Made by a program: the position numbers and the translations under genes
Source of the DNA: Rhodobacter sp.
GTDB taxonomy: Bacteria; Pseudomonadota; Alphaproteobacteria; Rhodobacterales; Rhodobacteraceae
DNA: 29,303 nucleotides
NCBI GenBank assembly: GCA_013824045.1
Contig: PNND01000228.1
Location: forward strand, 1-29,303
Reading direction: 5' to 3'
The notes under the pieces: generated by a model
What the model saw: only the letters and a program-made list of their open reading frames with translations
Databases searched by the model: none
Told to the model about the DNA's origin: nothing
Shown: in pieces, positions 7,956-9,105 of the stretch
How positions within the stretch are numbered: the first letter of the stretch is position 1
Layout: the number at the start of each line of letters is the position of its first letter

Positions 7956-7982
7956 CTCGCCCTATACGCAACGAAACAAATG

Positions 7983-8012
7983 CGCCCCGGTCTTCCGGGG
8001 CGTTTTTGTTTT
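7983..8012 (+). terminator. Intrinsic terminator after rpmD
   Basis: 8-bp perfect stem CGCCCCGG (7983-7990) / CCGGGGCG (7995-8002) with a TCTT loop, followed by TTTTTGTTTTT. It is a strong Rho-independent terminator 27 nt after the L30 stop and separates the upstream ribosomal genes from the ectC-like gene and rplO. Confidence 0.9.
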
Positions 8013-8099
8013 TGCCGTCCTAGATTGCGAGTAGGGCGCGGTCTTGCGGATGGTCACGTCAGCCAGCAGGATGATCCGGCCGCGCAAGAGGGAACCCCT

Positions 8100-8483
8100 A
8101 TGATTGTCAGAACGCTTGCCTCCATCATCGACACGCCTGCCCATGTGAAAGGCGACGCTTTTGAGAGCCGCCGCATCCTGCTGGCGGCCGACGGGTTGGG
8201 CTATTCGCTGCATGACACGCTGTGCAAGGGTGGGACGGAACAGCGTCTGGAATACCGCAACCACATTGAGACGAATTACATCATCGAAGGCGAGGGCGAG
8301 GTAGAGAACGTCGCCACCGGCGAGGTGTGGCCGCTTGCGCCGGGAACGGTTTACGTGCTGGATCGGCACGAGGCGCATCTGCTGCGCGCCCGGACGGACC
8401 TGCGGATCATCTGCGTCTTTACCCCGGCGCTGAGCGGGCAGGAAAAGCATGATGCCGATGGCAGCTATCCTGCGGTAGGGTAG
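8100..8483 (+). CDS. ectC: Orphan ectoine synthase homologue (EctC, cupin fold)
   Basis: 127 residues from ATG 8100 with GAGG 7 nt upstream; an in-frame ATG at 7980 lies in the terminator and is rejected. The protein matches EctC along its whole length: MIVRTL start, FESRRILLAADGLGYSLHDT, NHIETNYIIEGEGEVE, LDRHEAHLLRA and GQEKHDADGSYP end. Residues recalled from the Paenibacillus EctC structure as iron ligands (Glu57, Tyr85, His93) fall at exactly these numbers, as do Arg25, Thr40, Tyr52, Cys105, Phe107, Glu115 and His117; positions 21 and 38 are Phe and His instead of Trp and Asn. EctC cyclises N-gamma-acetyl-diaminobutyrate to the osmolyte ectoine, but no ectA, ectB or ectD is in the window. 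It may act on imported precursor or on another substrate. Confidence 0.85.
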   Translation: MIVRTLASIIDTPAHVKGDAFESRRILLAADGLGYSLHDTLCKGGTEQRLEYRNHIETNYIIEGEGEVENVATGEVWPLAPGTVYVLDRHEAHLLRARTDLRIICVFTPALSGQEKHDADGSYPAVG

Positions 8484-8528: not shown

Positions 8529-8625
8529 CACGCGGTGATCCTTCGGGGGCACAGAATCAACAAGAAATGCCGCGTTGCCCTTCATCCGTCGCAGGTATGG
8601 GCATTCCGGCCAAGGAGTATGCGAC

Positions 8626-9105
8626 ATGAAATTGAATGAACTGCGTGACAATGACGGCGCCGCCAAGAAGCAGAAGCGTGTGGCGCGCGGCCCGGGTTCG
8701 GGCAAGGGCAAGACCGCCGGGCGCGGGATCAAGGGCCAGAAGTCCCGTTCGGGTGTGGCACTTGGCGGGTATGAAGGCGGCCAGATGCCGCTGTACCGCC
8801 GCCTGCCCAAGCGCGGCTTCAACAAGCCGAACCGTCTGGAATTCTCGGTGGTCAACCTCGGCCTGATCGAGAAGTTCATCGGTCTGGGCAAGCTGGACGC
8901 TAAGGCCGAGATCACCGAAGACGTGCTGGTCGCTGCTGGCCTGACCAAGACCAAGCGCGATGGTATCCGCATCCTGGGCAAGGGCGAGATCACGTCGAAG
9001 GTCAAGCTGGTGGTCACCGGTGCGTCTGCCTCGGCCATCGAAGCGGTCGAAAAGGCCGGTGGGTCGATCACTGTGAAGGCATCGGCGGCAGCGGCAGCCG
9101 AATAA
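8626..9105 (+). CDS. rplO: 50S ribosomal protein L15
   Basis: 159 residues from ATG 8626; AAGGAG lies 8 nt upstream and [22 protein letters not shown] is the expected start. L15 is a late-assembly protein with a long glycine-rich basic N-terminal extension ([22 protein letters not shown]) threading 23S rRNA. The C-terminal domain [29 protein letters not shown] is diagnostic; the tail is alanine-rich. It is separated from rpmD by a terminator and ectC, an uncommon interruption, and from secY by a 100-nt gap with two large hairpins. Confidence 0.98.

Follow-up and report, generated by a model that had tools for sequence, protein, structure and literature searches.

A solitary ectC gene lies in the gap between the two halves of the spc ribosomal protein cluster of a Rhodobacter sp., and its sequence supports a functional EctC-type Fe(II) cupin as the product; that this enzyme acts on an amide other than the ectoine precursor we consider an evenly balanced proposition. 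The gene (8100–8483, + strand) is an intact ORF of 127 aa in a 29,303-nucleotide stretch of DNA (hereafter, the window). It is placed between rpmD (L30; 7761–7955, + strand), the last gene ahead of the break in the spc cluster, and rplO (L15; 8626–9105, + strand), the first gene past it, and the ribosomal cluster in the window is otherwise standard. By its residues, the product is a putative EctC-type Fe-cupin of a clade that mostly carries phenylalanine at position 21 (the Phe21 clade).

Fold, recurrence, and phylogeny of the solitary EctC

The initial annotation had proposed a complete EctC homologue between rpmD and rplO, and both the ORF call and the profile scores bear this out: the product scored 171.1 bits against Pfam PF06339 (cut-off of 27), which assigns it to the EctC family, and 170.9 bits against NCBIfam NF009806 (cut-off of 128). 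Its closest relatives among solved structures are ectoine synthases, from P. lautus and S. alaskensis, the nearest by sequence being P. lautus EctC (5onn; 140.5 bits). An AlphaFold2 model (mean pLDDT of 91.3) predicted an EctC-like cupin fold, and the top eight PDB matches of this predicted structure were all ectoine synthases (best 5onm to 5bxx). Also as annotated, the alignment has the iron ligands Glu57, Tyr85 (Tyr84/85), and His93 (His92/93) in place, together with Phe21 and His38; of the residues that contact the substrate, only one departs if His38 is counted as normal for the family. Compared with EctC proteins from ectABC clusters (P. lautus 5onm/5onn/5ono and S. alaskensis 5bxx/5by5), the window EctC has the same predicted fold, length, and iron ligands and has Ser23, Arg25, Thr40, Tyr52, Cys105, and Phe107 in common with them, but it carries Phe21 rather than Trp, falls in a separate clade, and comes with no ectA or ectB over the cut-off.

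Related genomes share the gene order. We found rpmD-ectC-rplO at 18 distinct loci in Rhodobacter relatives, by a search of the family Rhodobacteraceae, GTDB contigs, and a genus survey together, and the three genes are co-stranded in all 30 records of these loci (duplicates included). The named near relatives of the source genome are Rhodobacter ruber CCP-1, Tabrizicola, and Pseudotabrizicola. A protein search of 394 genomes of the family gave EctC matches in 127; the top ten (65–100% identity) belong to one clade, and six of these ten lie in the rpmD-rplO gap. Two loci (L036 and L044) read ectC-rplO-secY, lacking an rpmD upstream within the sequence read, and there it seems as if the spc cluster had been broken apart at the rpmD-rplO gap.

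One could take the gene for the remnant of a lost ectABC cluster, no longer functional, or for a gene that landed in the gap by chance and is drifting there. The absence of ectA and ectB over the cut-off would suit such a reading, as would a patchy presence at the genus level, where 4 of the 19 genomes carry ectC between rpmD and rplO. However, the catalytic residues are kept, and the dN/dS of 20 genes (L036 and L044 included) had a median of 0.144 and a maximum of 0.32; these figures cover the 123 pairs, out of 190, for which 0.05 < dS < 1.5, the other 67 being dropped. By this measure, the ectC of the gap is under purifying selection, and because of this signal we regard a remnant as very improbable. 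The window ectC is also the sole PF06339 match in its own genome (83% complete, 512 contigs), and the selection signal does not fit the decaying duplicate considered in the initial annotation.

The phylogeny also speaks against a remnant, the Phe21 clade not being nested within the main ectB-linked EctC clade of the family. In a tree of 55 rows, the 20 EctCs from the gap or adjacent to rplO group with four others (L007, L008, L010, and L011) as a 24-row clade with support of 99/97, and 13 of the 14 ectB-linked EctCs of the family form a separate clade (100/100), in an unrooted reading of a tree with an unsettled bootstrap, several long branches, and weak deep branches. The fourteenth (L014) and P. 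lautus EctC sit elsewhere on weak branches. The window protein thus belongs to a distinct clade within the EctC family.

Pathway partners, position 21, and the substrate

In the accessible text of two surveys of orphan EctCs (PMC5924519 and PMC6344544), the role of solitary EctCs is described as unresolved, and there is no mention of an ectC lying between rpmD and rplO. Like the orphans described in that text, the window EctC is without ectAB and keeps most iron and substrate residues. The Phe21 clade lends itself well as a test case, combining carriers that have no ectA or ectB over the cut-off, a marked change at a residue held to drive catalysis, and a recurrent genomic address.

We searched 36 genomes for the partner genes. 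ectB scored over the cut-off in five, as did ectA in the same five (in G302 only just). Neither did so in any of the 17 distinct genomes with ectC before rplO; these stand for 18 carrier handles, G135 and G405 giving identical coordinates, and for carriers other than L041, L035, and L039, which the search omitted. The source genome (G000) is among the 17, and its EctC therefore stands alone, as annotated. Taken by itself, the absence from G000 is weak because that genome is 83% complete; ectA and ectB over the cut-off are also missing from G178, G135, G299, and G036, which are 99–100% complete. One genome (G375) has ectA and ectB plus a member of the Phe21 clade outside the gap (L011). The suggestion in the initial annotation that ectoine is imported or broken down found little support: EhuB, which stood for ectoine uptake in this search (TeaABC and UehABC were left out), scored over the cut-off in 2 of the 17 distinct carriers, EutD/DoeA did so in 5, and G000 has neither.

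We checked 17 active-site or nearby positions in the 120 homologues listed of 819, and found 15 invariant, one (position 112) departing once, and position 21 variable. Among these 120 of 819, S23, R25, T40, Y52, H55, E57, Y84, H92, C104, and F106 (P. lautus numbering) are identical and position 38 is always His, while position 21 is occupied by F in 110, by Y in 8, and by W in 2. In the 24-row clade, it is Phe in 22, Tyr in 1, and Leu in 1. All 14 ectB-linked EctCs read from the family have Trp21 and His38. Further columns mark the 24-row clade against the ectB-linked EctCs (Asn59, Tyr35, Leu33, and Ala110, among others), and some of these also occur in other orphan EctCs. A tandem ectC pair at L051 (5035–5809) has a divergent site in its first copy (Val38, Phe40, and Phe84; P. 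lautus numbering).

It had been proposed that two substitutions, at positions 21 and 38, might alter the substrate. His38 was ruled out as a substrate switch, being carried by 14 of 14 ectB-linked EctCs of the family, where it is usual in place of Asn38. Position 21, with Phe in 22 of the 24 rows, is distinctive. In the portion of PMC6344544 at hand, Trp21 is fully conserved in 437 EctCs from clusters and is conserved, sometimes shifted by two residues, in 145 orphan EctCs; unlike those 145, the homologues here have Phe21 in 110 of the 120 listed. The same portion reports that Trp21 touches the substrate and that P. lautus Trp21Ala retains 9.7% activity, and the equivalent Trp21Ala of S. alaskensis EctC has 26% activity in the excerpted text of PMC4795551. 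As far as these two texts extend, the mutants on record at position 21 are to Ala only; Phe for Trp may be a conservative aromatic swap that leaves ectoine synthesis intact.

From its family membership, we infer that the window EctC performs the EctC class of reaction. In such a reaction, a small amino-acid derivative would be reversibly dehydrated, its alpha-amino group closing onto its side-chain amide to form a cyclic amidine. More weakly, we infer that its natural substrate is probably not N-gamma-ADABA made de novo but a related amide, because the residue credited with pushing N-gamma-ADABA into the pocket, Trp21, is replaced (by Phe in 22 of 24 rows) and because the carrier genomes searched encode no enzyme that makes N-gamma-ADABA. 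The best reading of these residues is that the pocket of the Phe21-clade EctC has been remodelled. A more specific form of this proposal, that the clade is a new cyclodehydratase or amidine hydrolase with the EctC fold acting on a common cellular amide (glutamine, say, or an N-acyl diamino acid), we put forward as a long shot; in bacteria without ectoine synthesis, such an enzyme could, for example, clear a cyclic by-product. If it is true, the substrate of the Phe21 clade would give solitary EctCs an established role.

Two other roles keep closer to the known chemistry. The protein could be an ordinary ectoine synthase that salvages N-gamma- (or N-alpha-) ADABA from outside or from neighbours, closing it to ectoine as has been proposed for P. 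syringae, and we hold this to be possible but on balance doubtful. The active site is almost complete, EctC is reported to accept N-alpha-ADABA too (excerpted text of PMC4795551), and the solitary ectC of P. syringae gave ectoine in an H. elongata ectC mutant, although the passage at hand of PMC5924519 rates the P. syringae data as not yet conclusive. Moreover, position 21 is altered throughout the clade, and 15 of the 17 distinct carrier genomes, G000 among them, are without EhuB over the cut-off.

The enzyme might instead act as a hydrolase that opens the ring of ectoine, or of some other cyclic amidine, for nutrient use or by-product clearance. This we judge unlikely. According to the available passages of PMC5924519, H. 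elongata EctC hydrolyses homoectoine and DL-DHMICA and its glutamine/ADPC reaction is reversible, but ectoine itself is negligibly hydrolysed. Distant solitary EctCs adjoin a caprolactamase-like hydantoinase/oxoprolinase pair (L047) and a dimethylargininase-like gene (L048), both below the NCBIfam cut-offs, which would agree with hydrolysis; against it, just 5 of the 17 distinct carriers have EutD over the cut-off, and G000 is not one of them.

Outside the gap, the neighbours of ectC vary. At L047 (4797–9244), a solitary ectC is followed by the hydantoinase/oxoprolinase pair, whose first subunit resembles caprolactamase alpha (under the cut-off) and which may point to chemistry on lactams or cyclic amidines. 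L048 has its dimethylargininase-like neighbour and L050 an aconitase. A PhnM-like gene lies upstream of the non-slot Phe21-clade ectC at L052 and L055, and an ornithine-cyclodeaminase-like gene at L054; at all three (the loci of L007, L010, and L011), a different GFA gene lies just downstream and convergent. We dropped the neighbours of non-slot ectC genes as a guide to the substrate, since PhnM-like, ornithine-cyclodeaminase-like, caprolactamase-like, dimethylargininase-like, and aconitase genes share no pathway.

The rpmD-rplO gap and transcription of ectC

The initial annotation took rpmD and rplO to be normally adjacent, which fails for the family. There were 141 family genomes with an rplO match, from which 90 loci were read (51 genomes unread); 60 of the 90 were counted, and the remaining 30 were excluded for want of both rpmD and rplO in the right order. 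Of these 60 readable loci, 19 have a gap of at most 300 bp, 4 one of 301–600 bp, and 37 one of more than 600 bp. In 43 of the 60, a terminator hairpin with a T-rich tail starts no more than 100 nt from rpmD, compared to a mean of 0.36 and a maximum of 2 in mononucleotide shuffles. Split by gap length, it is present in 36 of 41 gaps longer than 300 bp, in 5 of 6 at 176–300 bp, and in 2 of 13 up to 175 bp. From the gap lengths and the terminators, we conclude that the spc cluster is often divided in this family, physically and probably also transcriptionally. The contents of the long gaps were checked for two genes only: ectC lies in the gap at 2 of the 60 readable loci and a GFA-family gene at 5.

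In the window, an intrinsic terminator (7982–8013, + strand) with a 9-bp stem, 8 G-C pairs, and a T-rich tail lies between rpmD and ectC. One is found at this place in 16 of the 18 distinct loci, the window included; L005 and L045 have none under the rule used. Because a terminator lies between the two genes, simple read-through from the spc operon into ectC is doubtful, and ectC is probably transcribed separately from rpmD. The ribosomal neighbours would then be a landing place for ectC rather than a functional partner. No sigma-70-like promoter was found ahead of the window ectC, and no obvious shared promoter in the regions upstream of the 18 gap ectC genes, which leaves room for some transcription to pass the terminator from rpmD. 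Coupling of ectC to growth rate via the ribosomal operon, as the initial annotation had it, was set aside on the terminator evidence; rplO, moreover, has its own conserved leader downstream.

A GFA-family gene of about 145 aa (PF04828, tested on L086 and L041) occupies the same gap on the same strand, alone or ahead of ectC, at L003/L059, L035, L039, L041, L085, L086, L096, L098, L168, L170, and L178. The two genes occur together at L003, L035, L039, and L041, with GFA upstream. In a 1.5 Mb genome (L087), the gap holds just a short partial GFA match, apparently decayed.

A candidate structured leader of rplO

Directly ahead of rplO, adjoining ectC but not part of it, lies a putative covarying leader (8567–8625, + strand; model match 8567–8628). 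Its P1 stem (8569–8572/8607–8610, + strand) encloses an inner hairpin. We collected 116 distinct records of this element (L001–L181), in which GCCG...CGGC surrounds the hairpin and is followed by the ribosome-binding site, a short tail, and ATG. A covariance model built from 30 leaders gave one match in each of 100 loci (26 of which were model seeds), all ending at the rplO start; with an E threshold of 0.1, the 355,739 bases searched held no other match. The model matched 119 of 121 genomes of the order, two of them twice and all in the same family, in a count of matches whose sites were not individually checked against rplO. In a class-wide draw of 142 genomes, it matched only two family members and two unrelated places; the latter (G527 and G532, outside the family) were taken as false, as no ribosomal query protein matched nearby.

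Rfam gave no hit over the gathering score on the gap of the window and six relatives, and none on the leader; literature searches returned no paper on an rplO leader by title. Table 1 of PMC7247131, in the part of that paper available, has an archaeal eL15 motif and no bacterial rplO motif. Like the 20 ribosomal-protein leader motifs of that part, the rplO element is structured, covarying, and directly ahead of a ribosomal gene, but it lacks a counterpart in Table 1 and in Rfam, a comparison that stops short of the supplement on older leaders. On these sequence grounds, it is possibly a new ribosomal-protein leader. If it gives feedback, it would be a control of bacterial L15 of a kind that our Rfam and literature searches did not find.

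The inner helix covaries. We counted 119 two-sided changes against 47.7 in shuffles, nearly all of them in the inner helix, and a covariation score of 0.313 against 0.124 in shuffles and at most 0.065 with slid partners, on an alignment fitted to the model and with cells that count sequences rather than events. Variation in the outer stem is slight, and three of the inner pairs are broken in 24–36 sequences. The minimum-energy fold of the window leader is no better than that of shuffles (z of −0.36), and the best energy fold differs from the comparative structure; hence the case for a leader RNA rests on covariation.

The hairpin loop GTCGCA (8588–8593, + strand) is complementary to TGCGAC (8620–8625), directly before the ATG. 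At least five Watson-Crick pairs between loop and tail are possible in 115 of the 116 sequences, as compared to a mean of 16 and a maximum of 29 with shuffled loops, and a mean of 81 and a maximum of 93 with swapped tails. Comparison across the leaders makes a loop-to-start pseudoknot likely, and such a pseudoknot, we propose, would control rplO translation. On the other side of the GCG core, the pairs form in 93 (maximum of 94) and 70 (maximum of 70) sequences, with no excess over shuffles that ignore kinship among the sequences. By the same shuffles, the pair next to the core forms in 114 of 115 sequences (maximum of 84) and the pair beyond it in 69 (maximum of 63).
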